Shown: one piece after another, positions 17,817 through 34,668 of the stretch | Numbering within the stretch: position 1 is the stretch's first letter | Layout: each line of letters starts with the position of its first letter | DNA from: [Eubacterium] siraeum | GTDB taxonomy: Bacteria; Bacillota; Clostridia; Oscillospirales; Ruminococcaceae | Assembly (NCBI GenBank): GCA_025150425.1 | Contig: CP102281.1 | Location: 1,550,001 to 1,614,000 of the forward strand | DNA: 64,000 nt | Direction: 5' to 3' | Position numbers and translations under genes: made by a program | The notes under the pieces: generated by a model | The model's input: the letters and a program-made list of their open reading frames with translations, nothing else | Databases searched by the model: none | What the model was told of the DNA's origin: nothing

Positions 17817-18281
17817 ATGAATGACAATCATAGTTTATCACATTCGAAGTGGAATTGCAAGTATCACATAGTATTCGCACCGAAATACCGAAGGCAGGTA
17901 GTGTACGGGCAGTTGAAAGCAGATATAGGGAAAATACTGCGAACATTATGTGAACAGAAAAAAGTGAATATAATCGAAGCAGAAGCATGCCCGGATCACA
18001 TACATATGTTGGTGGAAATACCACCGAACATAAGTGTAGCGCAGTTTATGGGGTATCTAAAAGGAAAGAGCTCATTGATGATATTTGATAGGCATGCAAA
18101 TTTGAAATACAAGTATGGGAATCGGCATTTCTGGTGCAGAGGATATTACGTAGATACAGTAGGAAAGAACAAAAAGGCAATAGAAGAATACATAAGAAAC
18201 CAACTTACAGAAGATATAGCAAACGATCAAATAACACTGAAAGAGTATATTGACCCGTTTACGGGTAGCAAGAACCAGTAA
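17817..18281 (+). CDS. tnpA: IS200-family Y1 transposase TnpA
   Basis: 154 residues. A Y1 HUH single-strand transposase: the HUH motif is HIHML near residue 62 (EACPDHIHMLVE) and the catalytic Tyr is in the segment RGYYVDTVGKN near residue 120. Starts behind AAAGGAGG. It differs from copy 2 by a single residue: Asp here, Gly there, immediately before the HUH histidine. Confidence 0.95.
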   Translation: MNDNHSLSHSKWNCKYHIVFAPKYRRQVVYGQLKADIGKILRTLCEQKKVNIIEAEACPDHIHMLVEIPPNISVAQFMGYLKGKSSLMIFDRHANLKYKYGNRHFWCRGYYVDTVGKNKKAIEEYIRNQLTEDIANDQITLKEYIDPFTGSKNQ

Positions 18282-18429: not shown

Positions 18430-21400
18430 TTATTCTTCGGATTCATCCTTTTTCTTACGCTTACCGAGAAGAAGTCCTGCTGCCGCAAGAGCCGCTGTAG
18501 CCGCCGCACCTGCCGCAAGCGTTCCGTCAATGCCAACGCCGGTATTGGGGTTGCCGTTTGTGTTGTCAAAGTCAGTACGCTCAAGATTACCGTTGCTGTC
18601 ATCGCCGTTTACACGCTCACCCTGAGGTGTTCTGTCGTCGAAGTCAACTTCATCACCGTTTACACGATCATTATCGGTATCTGTGTCAGTATCAGTATCT
18701 GTATCCGTGTCTGCATCCGTATCAGTATCCGTGTCTGTGTCGGTATCCGTATCTGTATCTGTGTCCGTGTCGGTATCCGTGTCAGTGTCTGTATCGGTAT
18801 CCGTGTCTGTGTCAGTATCTGTATCTGTGTCTGTATCTGTATCTGTATCTGTGTCGGTATCAGTATCAGTGTCTGTATCAGTATCTGTATCGGTATCAGT
18901 ATCAGTATCCGTGTCCGTATCTGTATCTGTATCCGTGTCAGTATCGGTATCCGTGTCAGTATCGGTGTCTGTGTCTGTGTCTGTGTCAGTATCGGTATCT
19001 GTGTCAGTGTCAGTGTCTGTATCAGTATCGGTATCGGTATCCGTATCAGTGTCAGTGTCGGTATCCGAGTCAGTGTCAGTATCGGTATCTGTGTCTGAAT
19101 CTGTGTCTGTGTCAGTGTCAGTATCTGTGTCTGTATCCGTGTCAGTATCTGTATCGGTATCTGTGTCGGTGTCAGTATCGGTATCCGTGTCAGTATCGGT
19201 ATCCGTGTCAGTGTCAGTATCCGTGTCTGTGTCAGTATCTGTATCTGTATCCGTGTCAGTATCGGTGTCTGTATCTGTATCGGTGTCAGTGTCAGTATCA
19301 GTATCCGTGTCTGTATCAGTATCGGTATCAGTGTCTGTATCTGTGTCTGTATCCGTGTCTGTATCTGTGTCTAAGTCAGTATCTGTATCTGTATCCGTGT
19401 CAGTATCGGTATCAGTATCTGTGTCGGTATCCGTGTCTGTATCAGTGTCCGTATCGGTATCCGTGTCAGTGTCAGTATCCGTGTCTGTATCAGTATCCGT
19501 ATCGGTGTCTGTGTCAGTGTCAGTATCTGTGTCGGTATCAGTATCAGTATCAGTATCAGTATCAGTGTCAGTGTCGGTATCCGTGTCAGTATCAGAATCG
19601 GTATCAGTGTCAGTATCTGTGTCCGTATCTGTATCTGTATCTGTATCTGTATCAGTGTCAGTATCTGTGTCTGTATCCGTGTCAGTATCTGTATCCGTAT
19701 CTGTGTCAGTGTCTGTATCCGTGTCTAAGTCTGTATCAGTATCTGTGTCAGTGTCAGTATCTGTGTCAGTGTCTGTATCGGTATCCGTGTCTGTGTCAGT
19801 ATCCGTATCTGTGTCGGTATCAGTATCCGTATCTGTGTCTGTGTCTGTGTCTGTGTCGGTATCCGTATCTGTGTCAGTATCTGTATCCGTGTCAGTATCG
19901 GTATCTGTGTCAGTGTCTGTATCAGTATCGGTATCCGTATCAGTGTCAGTGTCGGTATCCGTGTCAGTGTCCGTATCGGTATCTGTGTCTGAATCTGTGT
20001 CTGTGTCTGTGTCAGTGTCAGTGTCAGTATCTGTGTCTGTATCGGTATCCGTATCTGTGTCGGTGTCAGTATCCGTGTCAGTATCCGTATCTGTGTCGGT
20101 ATCTGTATCTGTATCCGTATCTGTGTCTGTGTCCGTGTCAGTGTCTGTATCAGTGTCAGTGTCACTATCCGTGTCGGTATCCGTGTCTGTATCTGTATCC
20201 GTGTCAGTGTCCGTATCGGTATCTGTGTCGGTATCCGTATCCGTATCTGTATCCGTGTCTGTATCGGTATCTGTGTCTGTATCAGTATCTGTGTCTGTGT
20301 CGGTATCTGTATCCGTGTCAGTGTCTGTATCCGTGTCTGTGTCAGTATCCGTATCTGTGTCTGTATCAGTGTCTGTGTCGGTATCCGTGTCTGTGTCAGT
20401 ATCCGTGTCAGTATCTGTATCAGTGTCTGTGTCGGAATCCGTGTCTGTGTCTGTATCCGTGTCAGTATCTGTATCCGTGTCAGTATCTGTATCTGTGTCA
20501 GTATCGGTGTCTGTGTCTGTATCGGTGTCAGTGTCTGTATCAGTATCTGTGTCTGTATCTGTGTCCGTGTCAGTATCTGTATCCGTGTCAGTGTCCGTAT
20601 CAGTATCTGTGTCGGTATCCGTATCTGTGTCAGTATCTGTATCCGTGTCTGTGTCGGAATCCGTGTCTGTATCCGTATCAGTATCAGTATCTGTGTCAGT
20701 ATCGGTATCCGAGTCAGTGTCAGTATCGGTATCTGTATCTGTATCCGTATCAGTGTCAGTATCTGTATCAGTGTCCGTATCGGTATCTGTATCCGTGTCA
20801 GTATCTGTATCAGTGTCTGTGTCCGTATCAGTGTCTGTGTCAGTGTCGGTATCAGTATCTGTGTCAGTATCCGTATCCGTATCAGTATCTGTGTCAGTAT
20901 CCGTATCCGTGTCTGTATCAGTATCTGTATCCGTGTCAGTATCTGTGTCTGTATCCGTGTCAGTATCGGTATCAGTGTCTGTGTCTGTATCAGTGTCAGT
21001 GTCCGTATCTGTGTCGGTATCCGTATCCGTGTCAGTGTCTGTATCGGTATCTGTATCTGTGTCTGTATCAGTATCTGTGTCTGTGTCTGTATCTGTATCT
21101 GTATCTGTATCGGTATCGGTGTCTGTATCGGTATCGGTATCAGTATCTGTGTCCGTATCGGTATCCGTGTCTGTGTCAGTATCGGTATCAGTATCCGTGT
21201 CTGTATCGGTATCCGTGTCAGTATCTGTATCGGTATCCGTATCTGTATCCGTGTCAGTATCTGTATCTGTATCCGTGTCAGTATCTGTATCGGTATCTGT
21301 GTCAGTATCTGTATCTGTATCCGTATCAGTATCGGTATCTGTGTCAGTATCGGTATCGGTATCCGTATCAGTGTCAGTGTCGGTATCCGAGTCAGTGTCA

Positions 21401-24400
21401 GTATCGGTATCTGTGTCTGAATCTGTGTCTGTGTCAGTGTCAGTGTCTGTATCCGTGTCAGTATCCGTGTCAGTATCCGTATCCGTGTCTGTATCAGTAT
21501 CCGTGTCTGTGTCAGTATCTGTATCGGTATCTGTGTCGGTATCCGTATCTGTGTCAGTGTCTGTATCGGTATCCGTGTCTGTGTCCGTATCAGTGTCCGT
21601 ATCAGTGTCAGTGTCAGTGTCTGTATCGGTATCCGTGTCTGTGTCCGTATCAGTGTCTGTATCAGTGTCGGTATCCGTGTCAGTATCCGTATCTGTATCC
21701 GTGTCTGTATCAGTATCTGTATCCGTGTCGGTGTCGGTGTCGGTATCTGTGTCTGTGTCGGTATCCGTATCGGTATCCGTATCTGTGTCTGTATCTAAGT
21801 CAGTATCAGTATCAGTATCCGTGTCAGTGTCAGTATCTGTGTCTGTATCGGTATCCGTGTCAGTATCGGTATCTGTATCCGTGTCTGTATCCGTGTCTGT
21901 ATCTGTATCTGTGTCCGTATCAGTATCAGTATCAGTATCTGTGTCAGTATCCGTGTCTGTGTCAGTATCCGTGTCGGTATCTGTATCCGTGTCTGTGTCA
22001 GTATCTGTATCAGTGTCTGTGTCAGTATCAGTATCCGTGTCTAAGTCAGTATCTGTATCCGTGTCTGTATCTGTATCTGTATCCGTATCTGTATCGGTAT
22101 CTGTGTCAGTGTCAGTGTCTGTATCCGTGTCCGTATCAGTATCCATGTCCGTATCAGTATCTGTGTCAGTATCGGTATCCGTATCTGTATCGGTGTCTGT
22201 GTCGGTATCAGTATCAGTGTCAGTATCGGTGTCGGTATCCGTGTCTGTGTCAGTATCGGTATCGGTATCCGTGTCTGTATCTGTATCGGTATCCGTATCT
22301 GTATCAGTGTCAGTATCTGTATCGGTGTCTGTATCGGTATCCGTGTCTGTATCGGTATCTGTATCGGTGTCCGTATCAGTGTCTGTATCGGTATCTGTAT
22401 CAGTATCAGTGTCTGTATCCGTGTCTGTGTCAGTATCTGTGTCAGTATCTGTGTCAGTGTCTGTATCTGTATCTGTATCCGTGTCAGTATCTGTGTCAGT
22501 ATCCGTGTCAGTATCTGTATCCGTGTCAGTATCTGTATCCGTGTCTGTGTCTGTATCCGTGTCAGTATCCGTATCTGTGTCTGTATCAGTATCTGTGTCG
22601 GTATCTGTATCCGTGTCAGTGTCTGTGTCTGTATCTGTGTCAGTATCCGTATCCGTGTCAGTATCCGTATCAGTGTCTGTATCGGTATCAGTGTCAGTAT
22701 CAGTATCTGTATCCGTGTCTGTATCTGTATCCGTATCTGTATCGGTATCCGTATCTGTGTCGGTGTCAGTATCCGTGTCAGTATCCGTATCTGTGTCGGT
22801 ATCTGTATCTGTATCCGTATCTGTGTCTGTGTCCGTATCCGTATCTGTGTCTGTGTCAGTATCTGTGTCGGTATCTGTATCTGTGTCCGTGTCAGTATCT
22901 GTGTCAGTGTCCGTATCCGTGTCAGTATCGGTATCTGTATCGGTATCAGTGTCCGTATCCGTATCCGTATCAGTGTCAGTGTCAGAATCTGTATCGGTAT
23001 CAGTATCTGTGTCTAAGTCAGTATCAGTATCCGTATCAGTGTCTAAGTCAGTATCAGTGTCTGTATCGGTATCTGTGTCAGTGTCTGTGTCAGTATCGGT
23101 ATCCGTATCTGTGTCAGTATCTGTATCGGTGTCCGTATCCGTGTCGGTATCTGTATCCGTATCCGTGTCAGTGTCAGTATCTGTATCGGTGTCAGTATCT
23201 GTATCGGTGTCAGTATCCGTATCTGTGTCTGTATCGGTATCATTATCTGTATCTGTATCTGTGTCGGTATCCGTGTCAGTATCTGTGTCAGTATCGGTAT
23301 CTGTGTCTGTATCAGTATCTGTGTCTGTATCAGTATCCGTATCGGTATCAGTGTCATCATCGCCGTAGTCGAAATCATCATCGTCGAAGGCCGGATTGAA
23401 CGGGTTACTGCCTAACTCTGTATTACCGGAGAACGACTTACAAACGATGTTACCGTCATGGTGCCAACCGCCGCCGTTTATGTCGGAGTTAGGTGCAAGA
23501 ATCGAACCGTTAAAGCCGTTTATGTTAATAGTCGCCGCATTGGTAACGTTAAAGAGCAGGTTACCTGTCTGCTCGTTATTCTGTAAATGATGACCGTTTA
23601 CAATAAGGCTGTGCATAGCAAGGTTAAGAGTTGTGCTGCTGTCGCCTTCGCCACCTGTAATATTAATAAGTATTGTCGAGCCTTCGGGAACATTGATATT
23701 AAGAGCGTATCCGCCGTTACCCGCCATCGAATTCCATGTATACATATCGATGGTGAAAATATTCACGCCTTTATCATAGCCGTCAAGCGTAATATTTCCG
23801 TATGCACCGTTATATACTCCGTTTGCCTGTAATCCTGCAAGGTGTGCGGATGATGAACGTAAATATGCAAACGTATCGGCAAAATTAAACTTGCACTCGT
23901 CGCTGTTTACGCCGCCGATTACAGTTTTATAATTTGAATTGCTGTAATTCTCGCCGATGTTGTTTGCCCATACGTTACCGTTATTGGTGCAGAAATTATT
24001 CAGCGTGCCGCCTACGATAAGAGAAGCACATCCGTTAGGATCATTTCTGTTCGGATCCTGATGGTTTATATCATACCAACCCGGACCTGTGAAATCTCCG
24101 CCTGCCGCAATACGTCCACCGCTGTCTGCGCCCATAATGTTGCAATCTCCCTCTGTAAACAGAGTAAAGCCTGCAGCATAGCCGAATACGTCGTTATAAA
24201 CATCTCCGACGAGATTATTGTATACAGAAGACTGGCTGGCGGTTACCGAAGTGTCAAAATCCTCCGCTGATAAAATCGAAGGCAAATCGGTGCTGTAAAC
24301 ACTGTCGGTCACATATGTCTGCGAAGCAGAACTGTCTGTGAACACCTCAGCTTGTCTGAGCTGAGTGCCTGCAGGTCCGCCGAAGAATCTGGTGATCAGC

Positions 24401-24501
24401 ATATTTATCGCAAATACAAATGCGATTATCTTTCTGAGCACTTTCAGCTTAGCGTTGAGCTGCGGCTTCTGTGTGTAATTGTCGTAGCTGTTCTGAAGCA
24501 T
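18430..24501 (-). CDS. giant cell-wall-anchored choice-of-anchor-A protein with Asp-Thr stalk
   Basis: 2,023 residues. Residues ~20-45 are a hydrophobic export segment after a basic stretch (KLKVLRKIIAFVF). Residues ~85-350 match a choice-of-anchor-A adhesin-like domain (GADSGGRIAAGGDF; FNGSILAPNSDINGG). An Asp-rich linker leads into about 1,560 residues of Asp-Thr dipeptide, broken only by isolated Leu, Ser, Met, Asn or Ala in place of Thr. The C-terminal 80 residues hold NPNTG (~1984-1988), an Ala-rich hydrophobic span and KRKKK: a sortase-type sorting signal. The repeat is inferred to be a long acidic stalk like Ser-Asp repeats of staphylococcal Sdr proteins. The start has GGGAGG upstream. 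The stop lies 9 bases from IS200 copy 1, so the original terminator may be displaced. Confidence 0.9.
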   Translation of the reverse strand: MLQNSYDNYTQKPQLNAKLKVLRKIIAFVFAINMLITRFFGGPAGTQLRQAEVFTDSSASQTYVTDSVYSTDLPSILSAEDFDTSVTASQSSVYNNLVGDVYNDVFGYAAGFTLFTEGDCNIMGADSGGRIAAGGDFTGPGWYDINHQDPNRNDPNGCASLIVGGTLNNFCTNNGNVWANNIGENYSNSNYKTVIGGVNSDECKFNFADTFAYLRSSSAHLAGLQANGVYNGAYGNITLDGYDKGVNIFTIDMYTWNSMAGNGGYALNINVPEGSTILINITGGEGDSSTTLNLAMHSLIVNGHHLQNNEQTGNLLFNVTNAATININGFNGSILAPNSDINGGGWHHDGNIVCKSFSGNTELGSNPFNPAFDDDDFDYGDDDTDTDTDTDTDTDTDTDTDTDTDTDTDTDTDTDTDTDNDTDTDTDTDTDTDTDTDTDTDTDTDTDTDTDTDTDTDTDTDTDTDTDTDTDTDTDTDTDTDTDTDLDTDTDTDTDLDTDTDTDTDSDTDTDTDTDTDTDTDTDTDTDTDTDTDTDTDTDTDTDTDTDTDTDTDTDTDTDTDTDTDTDTDTDTDTDTDTDTDTDTDTDTDTDTDTDTDTDTDTDTDTDTDTDTDTDTDTDTDTDTDTDTDTDTDTDTDTDTDTDTDTDTDTDTDTDTDTDTDTDTDTDTDTDTDTDTDTDTDTDTDTDTDTDTDTDTDTDTDTDTDTDTDTDTDTDTDTDTDTDTDTDTDTDTDTDTDTDTDTDTDTDTDTDTDTDTDTDTDTDTDTDTDTDTDTDTDTDTDTDTDMDTDTDTDTDTDTDTDTDTDTDTDTDTDTDTDTDLDTDTDTDTDTDTDTDTDTDTDTDTDTDTDTDTDTDTDTDTDTDTDTDTDTDTDTDTDTDTDTDTDTDTDTDTDTDTDTDTDLDTDTDTDTDTDTDTDTDTDTDTDTDTDTDTDTDTDTDTDTDTDTDTDTDTDTDTDTDTDTDTDTDTDTDTDTDTDTDTDTDTDTDTDTDTDTDTDTDTDTDTDTDTDTDTDTDTDTDTDTDTDTDSDTDTDTDTDSDTDTDTDTDTDTDTDTDTDTDTDTDTDTDTDTDTDTDTDTDTDTDTDTDTDTDTDTDTDTDTDTDTDTDTDTDTDTDTDTDTDTDTDTDTDTDTDTDTDTDTDTDTDTDTDTDTDTDTDTDTDTDTDTDTDTDTDTDTDTDTDTDTDTDTDTDTDTDTDTDTDTDTDTDTDTDTDTDTDTDTDTDTDTDTDTDTDTDTDTDTDTDTDTDTDTDTDTDTDTDTDTDSDTDTDTDTDTDTDTDTDSDTDTDTDTDTDTDTDTDTDTDTDTDTDTDTDTDTDTDTDTDTDTDTDTDTDTDTDTDTDTDTDTDTDTDTDTDSDTDTDTDTDTDTDTDTDTDTDTDTDTDTDTDTDTDTDTDTDTDTDTDTDTDTDTDTDTDTDTDTDTDTDTDTDTDTDTDTDTDTDTDTDSDTDTDTDTDTDTDTDTDTDTDTDTDTDTDTDTDTDTDTDTDTDTDTDTDTDTDTDTDSDTDTDTDTDTDTDTDTDTDTDTDTDTDTDTDTDTDTDTDTDTDTDTDTDTDTDTDTDTDTDTDTDTDTDTDTDTDTDTDTDTDTDTDLDTDTDTDTDTDTDTDTDTDTDTDTDTDTDTDTDTDTDTDTDTDSDTDTDTDTDTDTDTDTDTDTDTDTDTDTDTDTDTDTDTDTDTDTDTDTDTDTDTDTDTDTDTDTDTDTDTDTDLDTDTDTDTDTDTDTDTDTDTDTDTDTDTDTDTDTDTDTDTDTDTDTDTDTDTDTDTDTDTDTDTDTDTDTDTDTDTDTDTDTDTDTDTDTDSDTDTDTDTDSDTDTDTDTDTDTDTDTDTDTDTDTDTDTDTDTDTDTDTDTDTDTDTDTDTDTDTDTDTDTDTDTDTDTDTDTDTDTDTDTDTDTDTDTDTDTDTDTDTDTDTDTDTDTDTDTDTDTDADTDTDTDTDTDTDNDRVNGDEVDFDDRTPQGERVNGDDSNGNLERTDFDNTNGNPNTGVGIDGTLAAGAAATAALAAAGLLLGKRKKKDESEE
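18673..23354 (-). repeat. ~4.7 kb Asp-Thr coding repeat, 6-base period
   Basis: On the minus strand the unit is GAY-ACN, about 780 times. The third bases of both codons vary freely: GAC and GAT alternate irregularly and all four Thr codons occur, so most neighbouring units differ. Longer exact duplications exist: 101 bases at 20036-20136 and 22736-22836, 101 bases at 19022-19122 and 21344-21444, and 47 bases at 21551-21597 and 21611-21657. The 6-base period leaves several other frames free of stops, which creates spurious long open frames. Confidence 0.95.
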
Positions 24502-24774
24502 CTAAAAGACCTCCCGTTAATATTTCATTAATCAAGAATGATTACTGTTTAACTTACAAATTCTGTAAACTGGTGTGTATTCTTTAACCAAGTATACTTT
24601 TATTCATTATCATTATATACCCAAAACCCGAAAATGTCAAGCATTACCGTTAAATTTGTAAATAATTCTCACGTTCCTGCGAATAATATTTGGTTATCAC
24701 TCCAATCAAAACTTCCTTCAAATATTTTTCGTCATTTTGCGTTATGAATTAAGTTAAAATAATCGCAAAAGTCA

Positions 24775-24803
24775 TTGCATTTATTGTTTTCCGGTGCTAT
24801 AAT
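24775..24803 (+). promoter_or_regulatory. promoter of the DacA/MurF-like fusion gene
   Basis: TTGCAT, exactly 17 bases, TATAAT. Transcription would begin near 24810, about 60 bases before the start codon. It lies in the 369-base AT-rich gap between the giant adhesin gene (minus) and this gene (plus). No other structured element was recognised in that gap. Confidence 0.75.
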
Positions 24804-24870
24804 TAATATGTTGAATTTTGCTTACGGATACTGAAATTCACATAAACTAACTACGGAAGGATGAATCTTA

Positions 24871-27075
24871 ATGTCAGAAGTCAGAGCTGTTCAGAAAACC
24901 GAAATGCCCGAGATAAATGCTCAGGCGGCAATCGTTGTTACTCAGCATGAGGGTCGCATACTGCTTGAAAAGAATGCCAGAATGAAACTGTCGCCTGCTT
25001 TTCTTATTAAAATAATGGCATCTATAATAGCTCTGGAAAAATGTAATCCTAATGATACCGTAACAGTATCGGACAGCGTCATAAAGCAGATTTCGAACTG
25101 GAAAGGCTCGGCGTCTATCAATCTTGAAGCAGGAGAAAAAATATCTGTACTTGATTTAATTTATTCGATGATGCTGGTTTCAGCCAATGACTCTTTATTT
25201 GCTCTTGCGGAATTCATATGCGGAAGCCTTGACAAGTTTGCCGCAATGATGCAGGAGAAGGCTAAATCTATCGGTGCGGCGGATACAACTGTGACTACCG
25301 CTGACGGCAGATTTACAGCGGAGCAGTATTCAAACGCATACGACCTTGCCATCATCTGCCGCTACTGCATGACCAACAGAATGTTCAGAACAATAGCGGC
25401 TACCGATAAATATACAATCCCGGCAACGAATAAAAACGGCTCAAGGGATCTGCAGAATACGAATCTTCTTATTAACAGCGGTAACAGAAGATACAGATAT
25501 GAAACGGCTATCGGCATAAAAAGCGGATATACGGCTCGCTCAAAATCGTGCCTTGCCTGCTCTGCCCTGCCGCCCGCAAACAAATTCGGAGAAGAAGTGC
25601 TTGCAATAATACTCGGAGCAGAAAACACAAAGCAGATGAAATACGTTTTCTATGACGCAATAACACTGCTCGACTTCACGTTCAACAATTATGAAGCGCT
25701 CAGCGGTAAAAAACCGGAACAGCAGAATTCCGAAGCGGAAAAATCCATTACCACAGTAGGAAAGCTGTGTGAAATTCTTAATGCTGAGCTTCGCAATGCC
25801 GCAGACGTTCCAATTACATCATTTGCCTTCGGTAAACAGAAAATAAAACCCGGATGTGCATATTTTGCCGCCGATAAGGAAACGGCTGTCACGGCATTTG
25901 AAAAGGGTGCGGCTGTTATTATCACAACTCAGCCGATAGAGAAGATTCCGAATATCGTTGTGGCAAATCTTGATACCGCTCTCAGCAGGACCGCAGTATT
26001 TATAAAGTCGGCACTGGGAATGTGGACTGTAGCTGTTATGGACAGTCCCGAAAAGATAAATCCCCTTTCGATGATAGAACAAATGCTTTCGAGCAAGATG
26101 GAAACCGTGCATTCAATTTCCGTTACAAACAACTACAATTCAATGCTCCATGCAATGTTTGCTTCTACACCTAAAACCGAGACGGCTGTCATCAATGTTT
26201 CGTGCGTAAACGGAGGAAACGTTGAACGTGTTTCGCAGACAGCCAACTTTGATGTTGCGATACTTACAAGCACGGTCGTATCCAAAAATCCGAGGGAACT
26301 GACAAAGCCTGAGCTTATTGAAGAAAAACTCAAGGTATGCGGCGGAATGAACGAATCGGGTGCGGTCATCATAAATATTGACGATAAGAATCTCGCAGGC
26401 ATATTCACCATACCGCAGGATATTATCACCATCGGCGTTGATAACAGAATGGCTGATTATTTTGCCGATAACATAGAGCTTTCCCATAATAAAATCTCGT
26501 TTGATATAATACACGGTGCGGATAATTATCATATCGAGCTTTATTCCGATGATAAGCACAGCGTATATCAGGCTCTGGCAACATTTGCACTGGGCGAGAT
26601 TATGGGCATACCGCCAAAGCAGATTATACCGGCAATCGAAAAATACCGCCCGTCAACAGGACTTACAACAGTACGCAACGAAAGAGGTATTTATGTAATA
26701 TCCGATTTTGAAAACGAGGCTGTTGAAAGCGTAGGTGCGGCTCTTAAGGAACTCTGCACCATGCAGCTTCCTCCCGATTCAAGAAGAATAGCGGTATTGT
26801 CTGAAGTAGGTGACGGTGACGAGCATGAACTTGAAATATACAGGAAGGTCGGCAATATCGTCAATAAAGCAAGCGTAAATATTACGGTTTGCTACGGTGA
26901 AACCGCCGCAGAACTGATGAAAACCGCCGATTTAAAAAGCAAATTCGTAATAAAGCTGAACACAAGACAGGCTCTTACAGAATTTTTAAAGCTGAATCTG
27001 CGTGATAATGACGCTGTACTTTTCAAAGGCTCGACGGTGACCGAGCTTGACGAAATTATGACGGACGTCACATAA
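24871..27075 (+). CDS. fusion of degenerate DacA-like and MurF-like domains (putative pseudoenzyme)
   Basis: 734 residues, no signal peptide or membrane segment, so cytoplasmic. Residues ~15-270 align with D-alanyl-D-alanine carboxypeptidases (S11): SAN at 104-106 and KSG at 217-219 are kept, but the serine of SxxK is Phe44 (FLIK). Residues ~290-734 follow the MurF plan: an N-terminal fold with KIKPGCAYFAADK, then VAVMDSPEKI at 387-396 where MurF has the ATP loop GSNGKT, then a central-domain trace (NNYNSML, ETAVINVS) and a C-terminal trace (SVYQALATFALG, VISDFENEAVES, RRIAVLSEVGDG). The ATP loop and the DDSYNANP-like motif are eroded. I infer two catalytically dead domains of opposite peptidoglycan steps in one chain, possibly a sensor of muropeptide precursors. 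The reading frame is intact and has a good promoter. Confidence 0.7.
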   Translation: MSEVRAVQKTEMPEINAQAAIVVTQHEGRILLEKNARMKLSPAFLIKIMASIIALEKCNPNDTVTVSDSVIKQISNWKGSASINLEAGEKISVLDLIYSMMLVSANDSLFALAEFICGSLDKFAAMMQEKAKSIGAADTTVTTADGRFTAEQYSNAYDLAIICRYCMTNRMFRTIAATDKYTIPATNKNGSRDLQNTNLLINSGNRRYRYETAIGIKSGYTARSKSCLACSALPPANKFGEEVLAIILGAENTKQMKYVFYDAITLLDFTFNNYEALSGKKPEQQNSEAEKSITTVGKLCEILNAELRNAADVPITSFAFGKQKIKPGCAYFAADKETAVTAFEKGAAVIITTQPIEKIPNIVVANLDTALSRTAVFIKSALGMWTVAVMDSPEKINPLSMIEQMLSSKMETVHSISVTNNYNSMLHAMFASTPKTETAVINVSCVNGGNVERVSQTANFDVAILTSTVVSKNPRELTKPELIEEKLKVCGGMNESGAVIINIDDKNLAGIFTIPQDIITIGVDNRMADYFADNIELSHNKISFDIIHGADNYHIELYSDDKHSVYQALATFALGEIMGIPPKQIIPAIEKYRPSTGLTTVRNERGIYVISDFENEAVESVGAALKELCTMQLPPDSRRIAVLSEVGDGDEHELEIYRKVGNIVNKASVNITVCYGETAAELMKTADLKSKFVIKLNTRQALTEFLKLNLRDNDAVLFKGSTVTELDEIMTDVT

Positions 27076-27213: not shown

Positions 27214-29964
27214 TCACTCGGTAGCCGCCGCAAGTCTGGTGTAACCGCTGTATTCGGTAACGCCGCCTGCTGTCTTGTATGCGGCTATTCTGAATGTGTA
27301 TGTTGTGCCTGCTTTAAGTCCCGATACACGACAGGTAACCGTTGCGTTGGATGTCGCATTCAGTATCTGCGTCCACTTACCGCCCTTATACTGCTCAACA
27401 ACATAGCCCGTAGCGGAATTGTTCTTAGCCCACTGTAAATTCAGCGTGGAAGCAGTACCGCTTTTCTTTATGAACGATGTAACGTTTGAAGGAAGTGTTG
27501 TTGCCGCAAGTCTTGTATAGCCACTGTATGCAGAACCGTTGAACGCTCTGATTCTGAAGGTGTATGTCGTGCCTGCCGCAAGACCGGTTACCGTATGAGT
27601 AACCGTTGCGTTGTTAGCGGTTCTCAGAATTTCAACCCACTTGCCGCCGGTATATCTTTCAATAGCATAACCGGTCGCATTCACATTCTTAGCCCACTGT
27701 AAAGTAAGTGTAGAGCTTGTAGCGGATTTTTTTGCAAATGAAGCTACATTGCCCGGCTGCGTAGTCTTATCGGTAACTGCCGCAAGTCTTGTGTAGTCGC
27801 TGTAAAGAACGGTTGAACCTACTGTCTTATATGCTTTAATGCGGAACGTATAGGTTGTTCCCGCTGCAAGGCCGTTTACTGTATGAGTAACCGTTGTGTT
27901 GTCAGCGGTCTTCAGTATCTGCGTCCATTTTCCGCCCTTGTACTGTTCAACAATATAGCCGCTTGAAGATGCGTTCTTGGACCACTGTAAAGTGAGCGAA
28001 GAACTTGTTGCGGATTTCTTTGCAAACGTTGCCACGTTTGTAACCGCTGTGCCTGCCGCAAGTCTTGCGTAATCACTGTATACTACCGAGCTACCCTCGT
28101 TTCTGTACGCTCTTATGCGAAATGTATAAACACTGCCTGCGGCAAGACCGTCTGCATTATAAGATACTGTGCCGTTACCTGACGTTCTCAGTATCTGCGT
28201 CCACTTTCCGCCCTTATATATCTCAAGCTCATATCCGCTTGCAGCCGCATTCTTATCCCACGATATTCCGACAGATGTTGTTGTTCCGGATACCTTGCGT
28301 ACATTACCGACAGCGTCAAGAGTCAGCTTTGATACATAATTATCAATATAGGAGCTGTTGCAAACCGAACACTTATGTATCGTATATCCGTCAGTTGTAT
28401 ATGTCGGTGCAACCACTGAAGTGATATAATTGTGAGGTTTCTTTTCGATTGTTGCCGTTTCAATATGACTGCACTTTGAGCATACTCTGTGCTTTTCGCC
28501 TGTTGCTGTACAGGTTGAATCCCTGTCGATTATCCATTCGCCGTATGTGTGTTCTGTGCATTCGGTATCGGAAACGGCATAAGCCTTTATCATCAGATTA
28601 TTTTTTCCGCTGTCGGTGCAATCGAACCATCCGTACGAAGGATTATATGTATAGAAGCTCTCGCCCTTGTTAGCTTTAAGGTCATATGTAAGGCCGTACA
28701 TGCTGTAGCCGTATTCACTGTAAATTCTGACTGTGCCGGAATCCTTGGTTATTTTTGCTACTATTGCGAAAGATTCTCCCTTCTTCACCTTTACGGGAGT
28801 ATCGAACTTCAGCGAATAATAACCCTCGTACTTGACATTGCTCATTGTGGCAACGGCGGATTTTGTGCCTGAAGTGGGATCGCTTGCATTCTTTAAACCT
28901 GTATACACACTAAGCTCGATGTTATTTCCTGCGGAAGTATAGGCTGCAGCTCCCGTAACATACGAATCTTCATCTGCGGTGAACACATTCGCACCGTATA
29001 TATCAGGTCTGGAATAGCCGAATGAGGCTACGCTGTTTCCGCCGTCATAGCTGTAACGGGTATCAAAGTAATCATCGGCGCCATCGACCGTAAAGTCATA
29101 GGCAATGCCGACACCGCTTATCGACTTATCATAGTATGACAGCCAGAAATATCCGTTATCTCTTGAATATTCTCCCCAGCTGTTCTTGATGAGCCATGCA
29201 CCGTCACCTGCAGGAGTTGTCTTGAAAGAAGACGCCGGAATGGTGTCATCCCATCCAACAACCGTTACGGCATGATTTGAAGTATATTCATTAGGATTAT
29301 AATAGTAACTGCTTCCATCTTCTCCGAACTTATTATCTGTATGGTTTTCGTTGTAACTCAATGAAGCGGCACCGTAATCCATAATAAGCTGTTTGAACTC
29401 GTCGTTGTCACTGTTGTTGTTGATATGAGCCTGGAACACTCCCGTGATTTTTGCAACAGAAGAATTTCTTACCTCATAATACTCGGATTCGGTAAAATTC
29501 TTTTCGGCAATGCTCGGCGTATTGTACTCGCTGTAAGGATAATCACTGCTTTCATTGTAAGGTCCTATGCCGTTCATCAGGCCAAGACCCGCAGCCCATA
29601 CATTACCGCCGTATTCAAGATAATATGTAGATCCTTCATTGTAGGTGGCAGTATCGCCCGAAGAATTGAGCTGACCGTAAAGTGCCGGATGACTCAGCAT
29701 ATAAGAGAGCAGATTTTCCGAAAGGTCTGTATTTTCTGCGTTGAACTTATCCGGGAACTCCTTTATCAGCGAAGCCTCGCTTATGGCTGTTGATGAAAAA
29801 GCCCAGCAAGTACCCCAGTTTCCCTGATTCTTCACAGATGTTATATATCCCTGCTCCACCGCACTGTATTTAGCGGGTGCGGCATAAACGGACAGCGACA
29901 ACACGCTTGCAGTCACTGCCAGTGCTGTACCCGAAGCACAGATTCTCATTAGTTTTTTATTCAT
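27214..29964 (-). CDS. secreted papain-like cysteine protease with lectin-like and Fn3 domains
   Basis: 916 residues from MNKKLMRICASG, chosen over a start 24 codons upstream because GGAGGAAGT precedes it and a signal peptide (residues 1-29, ending VYA-A) begins there. A C1 papain fold follows at once, without a visible propeptide: Gln47 and Cys53 (NQGNWGTCWAFSS), His231 (SNHAVTVVGWDD), Asn261 (WLIKNSWG). Next come a lectin-like domain often found after such proteases (~285-420), a Cys/His-rich segment with CSKCSH and CSVCNSS that could bind zinc, and four Fn3-like repeats each carrying a GGKW segment and a YTFRI strand. There is no sorting signal, dockerin or terminal membrane helix, so it is likely released or wall-associated through its repeats. 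Confidence 0.88.
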   Translation of the reverse strand: MNKKLMRICASGTALAVTASVLSLSVYAAPAKYSAVEQGYITSVKNQGNWGTCWAFSSTAISEASLIKEFPDKFNAENTDLSENLLSYMLSHPALYGQLNSSGDTATYNEGSTYYLEYGGNVWAAGLGLMNGIGPYNESSDYPYSEYNTPSIAEKNFTESEYYEVRNSSVAKITGVFQAHINNNSDNDEFKQLIMDYGAASLSYNENHTDNKFGEDGSSYYYNPNEYTSNHAVTVVGWDDTIPASSFKTTPAGDGAWLIKNSWGEYSRDNGYFWLSYYDKSISGVGIAYDFTVDGADDYFDTRYSYDGGNSVASFGYSRPDIYGANVFTADEDSYVTGAAAYTSAGNNIELSVYTGLKNASDPTSGTKSAVATMSNVKYEGYYSLKFDTPVKVKKGESFAIVAKITKDSGTVRIYSEYGYSMYGLTYDLKANKGESFYTYNPSYGWFDCTDSGKNNLMIKAYAVSDTECTEHTYGEWIIDRDSTCTATGEKHRVCSKCSHIETATIEKKPHNYITSVVAPTYTTDGYTIHKCSVCNSSYIDNYVSKLTLDAVGNVRKVSGTTTSVGISWDKNAAASGYELEIYKGGKWTQILRTSGNGTVSYNADGLAAGSVYTFRIRAYRNEGSSVVYSDYARLAAGTAVTNVATFAKKSATSSSLTLQWSKNASSSGYIVEQYKGGKWTQILKTADNTTVTHTVNGLAAGTTYTFRIKAYKTVGSTVLYSDYTRLAAVTDKTTQPGNVASFAKKSATSSTLTLQWAKNVNATGYAIERYTGGKWVEILRTANNATVTHTVTGLAAGTTYTFRIRAFNGSAYSGYTRLAATTLPSNVTSFIKKSGTASTLNLQWAKNNSATGYVVEQYKGGKWTQILNATSNATVTCRVSGLKAGTTYTFRIAAYKTAGGVTEYSGYTRLAAATE

Positions 29965-30150
29965 ACTTCCTCCTGATGTATATGTATAAATCGGCTGAAT
30001 GTCTTTTAACGGTAAAAAACGTTTGTTTTCGACCATTTTACTTATTAATTATACCATTTTACGATGTGACAGTCAATTGATAAATCGTTGAATTTTATGC
30101 GACTTTTTTGCACAGAATAGATAAAATTTAAGTTTTTCTCCAAAAAGGGC

Positions 30151-33937: not shown

Positions 33938-34668
33938 AATCAAAACCACGCGTTGAACGCGTGGTATGCACTTGCCCTTCAAGGGCATAATATCGGCTTG
34001 TGCCTGAAGGCACACTGAAAAGTCTGGCAACCGCATCTCATTTACAGCAGCCACTCAAGTGGCTGTTTCTTTTTGCTTACTGGTTCTTGCTACCCGTAAA
34101 CGGGTCAATATACTCTTTCAGTGTTATTTGATCGTTTGCTATATCTTCTGTAAGTTGGTTTCTTATGTATTCTTCTATTGCCTTTTTGTTCTTTCCTACT
34201 GTATCTACGTAATATCCTCTGCACCAGAAATGCCGATTCCCATACTTGTATTTCAAATTTGCATGCCTATCAAATATCATCAATGAGCTCTTTCCTTTTA
34301 GATACCCCATAAACTGCGCTACACTTATGTTCGGTGGTATTTCCACCAACATATGTATGTGACCCGGGCATGCTTCTGCTTCGATTATATTCACTTTTTT
34401 CTGTTCACATAATGTTCGCAGTATTTTCCCTATATCTGCTTTCAACTGCCCGTACACTACCTGCCTTCGGTATTTCGGTGCGAATACTATGTGATACTTG
34501 CAATTCCACTTCGAATGTGATAAACTATGATTGTCATTCATTTGACAGTCCTCCTTTTGATATTCATGTGGTTGCCAAACCCACTTCTATTATATCATAG
34601 GAGGGCTTTTTACTAAAGTCTTTTATTCCACCGCTTCAAGCGGTGGTTTATTTTTGCTAAAGCTACAA
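33938..34668 (-). mobile_element. IS200-type insertion sequence, copy 2
   Basis: 731 bases, the reverse complement of 17690-18420 with at least one base change in tnpA. All terminal and sub-terminal hairpins are retained. Its left end (34668 side) abuts the T tract of the ridA terminator; its right end (33938 side) faces the DtxR promoter. The near identity implies a recent copy or continuing gene conversion. Confidence 0.92.
34077..34541 (-). CDS. tnpA: IS200-family Y1 transposase TnpA, copy 2
   Basis: 154 residues identical to copy 1 except Gly instead of Asp directly before the HUH motif (EACPGHIHML). The residue at this place is commonly Asp in IS200 transposases, so activity may be reduced. 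The catalytic Tyr and both His are intact. Confidence 0.93.
   Translation of the reverse strand: MNDNHSLSHSKWNCKYHIVFAPKYRRQVVYGQLKADIGKILRTLCEQKKVNIIEAEACPGHIHMLVEIPPNISVAQFMGYLKGKSSLMIFDRHANLKYKYGNRHFWCRGYYVDTVGKNKKAIEEYIRNQLTEDIANDQITLKEYIDPFTGSKNQ

Follow-up and report, generated by a model that had tools for sequence, protein, structure and literature searches.

D,D-Carboxypeptidases of the Peptidase_S11 family (DacA/PBP5, DacB) and MurF, the UDP-MurNAc-tripeptide:D-Ala-D-Ala ligase, are the described enzymes with which the two halves of a 734-residue protein of [Eubacterium] siraeum, probably a gut bacterium, have to be compared. Its gene is located in a stretch of 64,000 nucleotides (contig CP102281.1, positions 1,550,001 to 1,614,000; called the window in the following) and is divergent from the gene of a very large adhesin. 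The fusion protein resembles the carboxypeptidases in its profile match and in the presence of the SxxK lysine, an SxN motif and a KTG-type motif, but it has Phe at the position of the nucleophile (11 of 11 copies), no signal peptide and an attached Mur ligase. With MurF it shares the three-domain fold, and its best matches in the Protein Data Bank are MurF structures, whereas the ATP loop, the Glu at position 442 and the motifs of the N-terminal domain are missing. The NCBIfam murF profile TIGR01143 is matched at 3.3e-37, but the 128.5 bits fall short of its cut-off of 288.6, which is exceeded in just 2 of the 71 genus genomes.

The plastid RNA polymerase has a MurE-like subunit, PAP11, which is not known to act as a ligase. 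The parallel with the fusion is a Mur ligase fold put to a different use, in this case within a complex (8r5o and 8r6s were among the structure matches); PAP11 differs in being MurE-type, of the plastid, part of RNA polymerase and without an S11 half. Lineage-restricted fusion of wall-synthesis domains is exemplified by the MurB/MurC enzyme of Verrucomicrobium, the ligase part of which is summarized as active (PMC4803751); both of its parts are enzymes of the cytoplasmic pathway, unlike those of the protein described here. The process that is closest in spirit is the trafficking of the wall-anchored YSIRK surface proteins of Staphylococcus aureus, in which, according to the abstract, the signal peptide ties septal trafficking to envelope synthesis (PMC13104630). 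The adhesin described here is without YSIRK/GxxS, and neither a Mur ligase gene nor an S11 gene is among the hits that the abstract names. From the analysis below it is well supported that the fusion is a cytoplasmic double pseudoenzyme, with a D,D-carboxypeptidase as the source of one half and a MurF ligase as that of the other. It is real, it is selected and it has so far been seen in one lineage only.

The S11-MurF fusion and its active-site residues

The gene starts with ATG and the third codon upstream of its frame (24871-27075) is a stop; therefore, no signal peptide is hidden there. A hydrophobic N-terminus was absent from all 11 copies of the fusion, in-frame upstream codons included. 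An initial annotation of this DNA had proposed an intact frame of 734 residues, the lack of a signal peptide and the joining of DacA-type and MurF-type domains, and all three proposals were borne out. A Peptidase_S11 half is followed by a MurF-type half of three domains, as was found with Pfam, where Peptidase_S11, Mur_ligase_M (1.6e-11 at residues 400-574) and Mur_ligase_C (4.3e-8 at residues 600-721) all exceeded the gathering scores, and by structure comparison, which also supported the Mur ligase fold.

The serine of the SxxK motif is replaced by Phe44 (codon TTT), as had been noticed before, and this holds for each of the 11 orthologues. The same position is Ser in 15 of 17 S11 proteins used for comparison; the exceptions are L019 (Cys) and L024 (Ala), each with a hydrophobic N-terminus, and they show that loss of the serine is not unique in itself. 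Between residues 13 and 283 of the fusion, 130 of 271 positions are invariant over the orthologues, and 17 of the 21 columns conserved in at least 16 of the 17 comparison proteins are kept in all 11 copies. Because the nucleophile is gone and the frame of the pocket is invariant, the S11 half is read as a pseudoenzyme that would bind without cutting; judging from these residues, the pocket could still bind a D-Ala-D-Ala end. Two invariant CxxC pairs (residues 163-166 and 227-230) and six more invariant cysteines are also present in this protein without secretion signal; with respect to the idea of a metal site formed by C163/C166 and C227/C230, C227 is frequent in ordinary S11 proteins.

In the MurF half, the former ATP loop indeed reads DSPEKI; the GxxGK[ST] pattern is absent and G391, G394 and T396 are kept in 0 of 11 copies. 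The catalytic-site Glu past this loop (position 442), to which we presume a metal role belongs, is N, G or S in all of them. Six MurF-type proteins share 54 invariant columns, of which the fusions have kept 16, and the invariant residues over the orthologues amount to 15 of 91, 58 of 213 and 32 of 137 in the three successive Mur domains. When the sequences were aligned with MurF of E. coli and with homologues of the active type, STDTR and GxxxDGH were absent from all 11; in active MurF these two motifs belong to the N domain and serve nucleotide-sugar binding. Lys486 is invariant, and its counterpart in E. coli MurF is a Lys, presumably the carbamylated one. As ligase activity is hardly possible and the N-domain motifs are lost, the MurF half is read as a scaffold. 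Binding of UDP-MurNAc-peptides by this half appears unlikely because these motifs are lost as well, and this weakens the part of the earlier proposal of a muropeptide-precursor sensor or scaffold that relied on it. The description of both active sites as damaged is thus correct, but the damage is uneven: the S11 half lacks the nucleophile alone among its three classical motifs, whereas the MurF half lacks most catalytic positions.

The old chemistry is, on these residues, not likely to be retained in either half. An enzyme with altered chemistry, having a new activity in the S11 or the MurF half without the classical nucleophile or ATP loop, might make use of Lys47, SxN, KSG and the invariant Lys486, all of which remain. 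However, it would have to work with Phe at the nucleophile position throughout and without G391, G394, T396 or the Glu at 442, which no copy has kept, and it is regarded as very unlikely.

Orthologues, selection and related fusions

Full-length orthologues with 61-86% identity were found in 10 of the 71 genus genomes, including that of the window, and the carriers make up 9 of the 41 genus genomes with at least 90% completeness and at most 5% contamination. An eleventh orthologue (62% identity) is located on a further contig, L003. Among seven pairs only G035/G030 was unsaturated, with a nonsynonymous rate (dN) of 0.0077 and a synonymous rate (dS) of 0.203; for the window and G031, dN was 0.090 with dS saturated. 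In every computable comparison, overall or by domain, dN was below dS (overall dS was not computable for one pair). The gene is under purifying selection with a fixed loss of catalytic residues. Two catalytic motifs lost in a single frame might also be expected of a decayed or misassembled gene. This was rejected, and can practically be dismissed: no internal stop occurs in the 10 genus matches or in L003, selection is evident and the losses are identical in all 11. The same fusion with the same lost residues thus recurs in the relatives, none of which has intact catalytic residues, so the window does not merely hold a freshly decayed copy.

Beyond the genus, no full-length match was obtained among 39 other, 297 family and 394 order genomes, which are overlapping samples that include genus members and of which the family and order samples were scored for the best two to three candidates per genome. 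Plasmid carriage was rejected, as 154 plasmid records matched and none covered 80% of the query (phage and viral collections were not searched). An S11-MurF fusion was not found named in the titles or abstract openings of the literature matches listed.

Four genus genomes (G039, G104, G106 and G099; loci L117, L118, L119 and L115) contain a fusion of the same two domain families in the opposite order, MurF then S11. The copies of G104 and G106 are 82-83% identical to that of G039 and the G099 copy is 46% identical; Pfam was run on three of the four. Like the forward fusions they are without a hydrophobic N-terminus. In contrast to these, the ATP loop and the Glu of MurF are kept in 4 of 4, and the S11 part has kept the serine, Lys217 and Gly219 and lost the SxxK lysine, the SxN asparagine and Thr221. 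A common origin of the forward and reverse fusions was not supported, since they occupy separate branches in the trees of both halves (30 S11 rows and 19 MurF rows, three near-duplicate rows being omitted from each; the MurF tree carries a long-branch warning). From these trees, the two types look independent. The locus L115 of G099 also has a fusion of PGA_cap, Mur ligase and leucine-rich-repeat domains according to Pfam, and G055 (L116) has similar parts in two genes. By reading, both loci are near a sugar-dehydrogenase-like gene, that of G055 being near a gene of the D-Ala-D-Ala ligase family as well.

Besides four S11 proteins that have the serine, the host genome encodes its own MurF-type ligase with the ATP loop GSYGKTS; in view of this separate ligase, the fusion was rejected as a stand-in for a missing housekeeping MurF. 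The N-terminus of the ligase (L035; G000:C1:686428-687432, a frame of 532 residues) is hydrophobic, and its match to the murF profile does not begin before position 74. Most of the genus murF matches listed are similar, with profile starts around 70 and frames mostly of 490-600 residues; at 1e-30 a match is present in 68 of 71 genomes, fusions counted, and the family cut-off is exceeded in the two mentioned above.

The divergent adhesin gene

At all 11 loci, the gene of an (Asp-Thr)n adhesin with a signal-peptide-like N-terminus and a pAdhesive_15 domain adjoins the fusion gene in divergent orientation, a neighbour that the initial annotation had not mentioned. The other side of the fusion gene shows nine different contexts over these loci, being common only to G029 and G009, and to G035 and G030. 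All six adhesins that were assembled whole (window, L067 and L069-L072) have a signal peptide and an NPxTG-type sorting signal with hydrophobic stretch and basic tail; in 4 of the 11 loci the gene runs off the contig in the repeat, and that of G013 is frameshifted. The features of the locus are listed in the table. A strong promoter had been assigned to the fusion gene, which turned out otherwise: the sole perfect sigma-70 consensus in the scan is on the minus strand (24640-24612), upstream of the adhesin gene, and the candidate promoter of the fusion combines a perfect -10 with a poor -35 (TTGCAT, 24775-24780).

Features of the fusion gene and its divergent partner (window positions; residue limits of the Mur domains are approximate)
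Feature	Position	Strand	Basis
S11-MurF fusion, double pseudoenzyme gene, 734 residues	24871..27075	+	open reading frame (ORF) list, Pfam and NCBIfam profiles, genus comparison
Peptidase_S11 match, residues 8-251	24892..25623	+	Pfam, 7.1e-42
Codon 44 (TTT), Phe replacing SxxK serine	25000..25002	+	orthologue alignment, codon reading
Lys47 of SxxK, invariant 11/11	25009..25011	+	orthologue alignment
Ser104-Ala-Asn106, SxN motif, invariant 11/11	25180..25188	+	orthologue alignment
Lys217-Ser-Gly219, KTG-type motif, invariant 11/11	25519..25527	+	orthologue alignment
MurF N-terminal domain fold, ~residues 294-384, STDTR and GxxxDGH lost	25750..26022	+	alignment, structure comparison
Mur ligase middle domain, ~residues 385-597	26023..26661	+	Pfam, structure comparison
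Former ATP loop, residues 391-396, DSPEKI	26041..26058	+	G391, G394, T396 kept in 0/11
Mur ligase C-terminal domain, ~residues 598-734	26662..27072	+	Pfam, structure comparison
Intergenic region shared by the divergent genes	24502..24870		ORF list, 11-locus comparison
Candidate fusion promoter, TTGCAT-17-TATAAT, weak -35	24775..24803	+	read by eye; not listed by promoter scan
Adhesin promoter, perfect sigma-70 type, TTGACA-17-TATAAT	24612..24640	-	promoter scan; both hexamers invariant 11/11
Adhesin gene, surface protein of 2023 residues	18430..24501	-	ORF list, neighbourhood comparison, profiles
Adhesin N-terminal signal region, residues 1-41	24379..24501	-	conservation profile
Adhesin pAdhesive_15 (PF20597) domain	23413..24186	-	profile, 6.1e-40 in window
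Adhesin (Asp-Thr)n repeat, limits approximate	18673..23355	-	sequence reading
Adhesin C-terminal sorting signal: NPNTG, hydrophobic stretch, basic tail	18433..18552	-	sequence reading

The same 10 of 71 genomes that have the fusion match the adhesin over its complete N-terminal part, and 19 more genus genomes match this part incompletely, mainly in the adhesive domain, at 28-39%. Residues 15-41 form the best-conserved segment of 27 residues in the adhesin, with a mean pairwise identity of 0.74 compared with 0.56 for the whole adhesive domain. The YSIRK/GxxS motif is absent from the adhesin; the conserved stretch in the window copy reads LRKIIAFVFAIN. The better conservation of the signal region, together with the constant pairing, might indicate that the fusion is a dedicated cytoplasmic export or targeting factor that binds the signal peptide or the repeat chain of the adhesin and has no peptidoglycan ligand any more. 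This explanation by itself leaves the invariance of the S11 pocket motifs unaccounted for, and we consider it improbable.

A UvrB tree was built from 29 of 30 genomes, G024 being left out (its UvrB is 91% identical to the query by BLAST). The other nine of the ten forward-fusion genomes fall in one clade of 14 rows, which also holds G039, G104 and G106 as well as G018 and G025, the latter two with neither fusion. In G018, G025, G104 and G106 adhesin C-termini are located at contig ends, broken in the repeat. Because this repeat breaks assemblies, the absence of the forward fusion from these four may be an assembly effect, and lost contigs may partly explain the absences, perhaps also that in G039. 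Mutual exclusion of the two fusion types is not claimed: 0 of 13 clade carriers have both, but the fusion stretch may be missing from the assemblies of the four genomes.

Several observations were made around these genes. The frameshift in the G013 adhesin (L068:10315-11963) is either decay or an assembly error; the G013 fusion is on the longest branch of the tree and is directly adjoined by an S11 protein with a hydrophobic N-terminus and the serine (L068:6473-7612). A sensor kinase gene near the C-terminal end of the adhesin was seen in L069, L070, L187, L185 and L184, with a response regulator gene in four of the five, and not in the window. The (Asp-Thr)n repeat is faced on the plus strand of the window (18558-23399) by long open frames, which are apparently by-products of the repeat and not genes. 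Two alike IS200-type transposase genes are present (17817-18278 and 34080-34541), one of them just past the C-terminal end of the adhesin. The neighbour on the fusion side (27214-30036) encodes a papain-like protease with lectin-like and fibronectin domains and has no relative in the ten other stretches compared.

Possible role of the double pseudoenzyme

The intact gene, the fixed loss of residues, purifying selection, the lack of a signal peptide and the constant divergent pairing are directly supported. Binding of a ligand, coupling to precursor supply and an interaction with the adhesin or with its signal peptide are inferred. D-Ala-D-Ala ends are found in the cytoplasm on the dipeptide, on UDP-MurNAc-pentapeptide and on lipid precursors of the inner leaflet, and sortases join surface proteins to the wall precursor. 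The S11 pocket without its nucleophile would most likely bind, and not cut, a peptide end of the D-Ala-D-Ala or another type, and the MurF half would survive as a three-domain scaffold. As the partner is predicted to be a sortase-type wall protein, it is proposed that the fusion might tie the export or wall anchoring of the very large adhesin to the state of peptidoglycan precursor synthesis. To this reading, in which the pocket is kept for binding, the MurF half is a scaffold and the fusion serves the adhesin, we assign a probability of about 0.45. A stricter version, a checkpoint in which the dead carboxypeptidase pocket reads D-Ala-D-Ala-ended precursors and, via the dead MurF scaffold, permits the adhesin to be exported or to be anchored by sortase, is speculative and on balance unlikely.

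A number of points weigh against the proposed role. The shared presence in 10 of 71 genomes is not independent evidence because the two genes adjoin, and a Fisher test on them was not taken as proof for the same reason of linkage. The lead of the adhesin signal segment is slight, 0.74 versus 0.73 for the segment at residue 109. On the far side of the adhesin, ABC-transporter and dap-type genes are common to the window and G031, and a sensor kinase is found in five genomes (G029, G009, G024, G018 and G025). Since some gene order is shared on that side too, inherited linkage may explain the pairing, and its constancy may be in part plain inheritance. A reverse fusion is beside such an adhesin in only 1 of 4 loci (G106, a related C-terminus one gene away); in G104 the adhesin end and the following gene are on another contig without the reverse fusion, and in the stretches read for G039 and G099 an adhesin neighbour was absent. 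With respect to the S11 half, its identity comes from sequence: the structure-library matches, a list filled by Mur ligases, contain no row for it, and the full-length model is poor (pLDDT 53.6), also in this half. Phe44 might occupy the pocket and keep ligands out, and the invariance of Lys47, SxN and KSG could serve folding. Finally, an extension of the reading to transcriptional control of the adhesin appears unlikely because the Pfam scan of the fusion protein found no DNA-binding domain.

It is also conceivable that the double pseudoenzyme senses or buffers peptidoglycan precursors or regulates Mur ligases, has no functional tie to the adhesin and is adjacent to it by inherited linkage. 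The conserved motifs of the S11 pocket and the partly inherited gene order on the far side of the adhesin would fit such a role, and the MurF-type ligase and four serine S11 proteins of the host would be available as targets. However, the junction of fusion and adhesin is unbroken in 11 of 11 loci whereas the other junction of the fusion is broken in nine ways, and the MurF half no longer has its N-domain motifs; we hold this explanation to be somewhat doubtful.

The conserved back-to-back copies suggest a non-catalytic helper role, one that was not found described in the literature matches searched. Pseudoenzymes derived from wall enzymes are known as a kind; the adhesin neighbour is the new clue, and there is a chance that the role is a new form of wall-protein control. 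How envelope synthesis is linked to the display of surface proteins is, to judge from the abstract, still being worked out in S. aureus (PMC13104630). A peptidoglycan-derived pseudoenzyme with a conserved pocket and a constant neighbour offers an unusual handle on wall biology. The occurrence of two apparently independent fusions of MurF and S11 domains in one genus suggests that uniting both folds in the cytoplasm has a use. If the pocket of the forward fusion binds the precursor end, a direct and testable link would exist between the cytoplasmic supply of precursors and the display of wall-anchored proteins outside. If the checkpoint were true, this would be a dedicated two-gene wall-protein system, the control part of which is built wholly from retired peptidoglycan enzymes.
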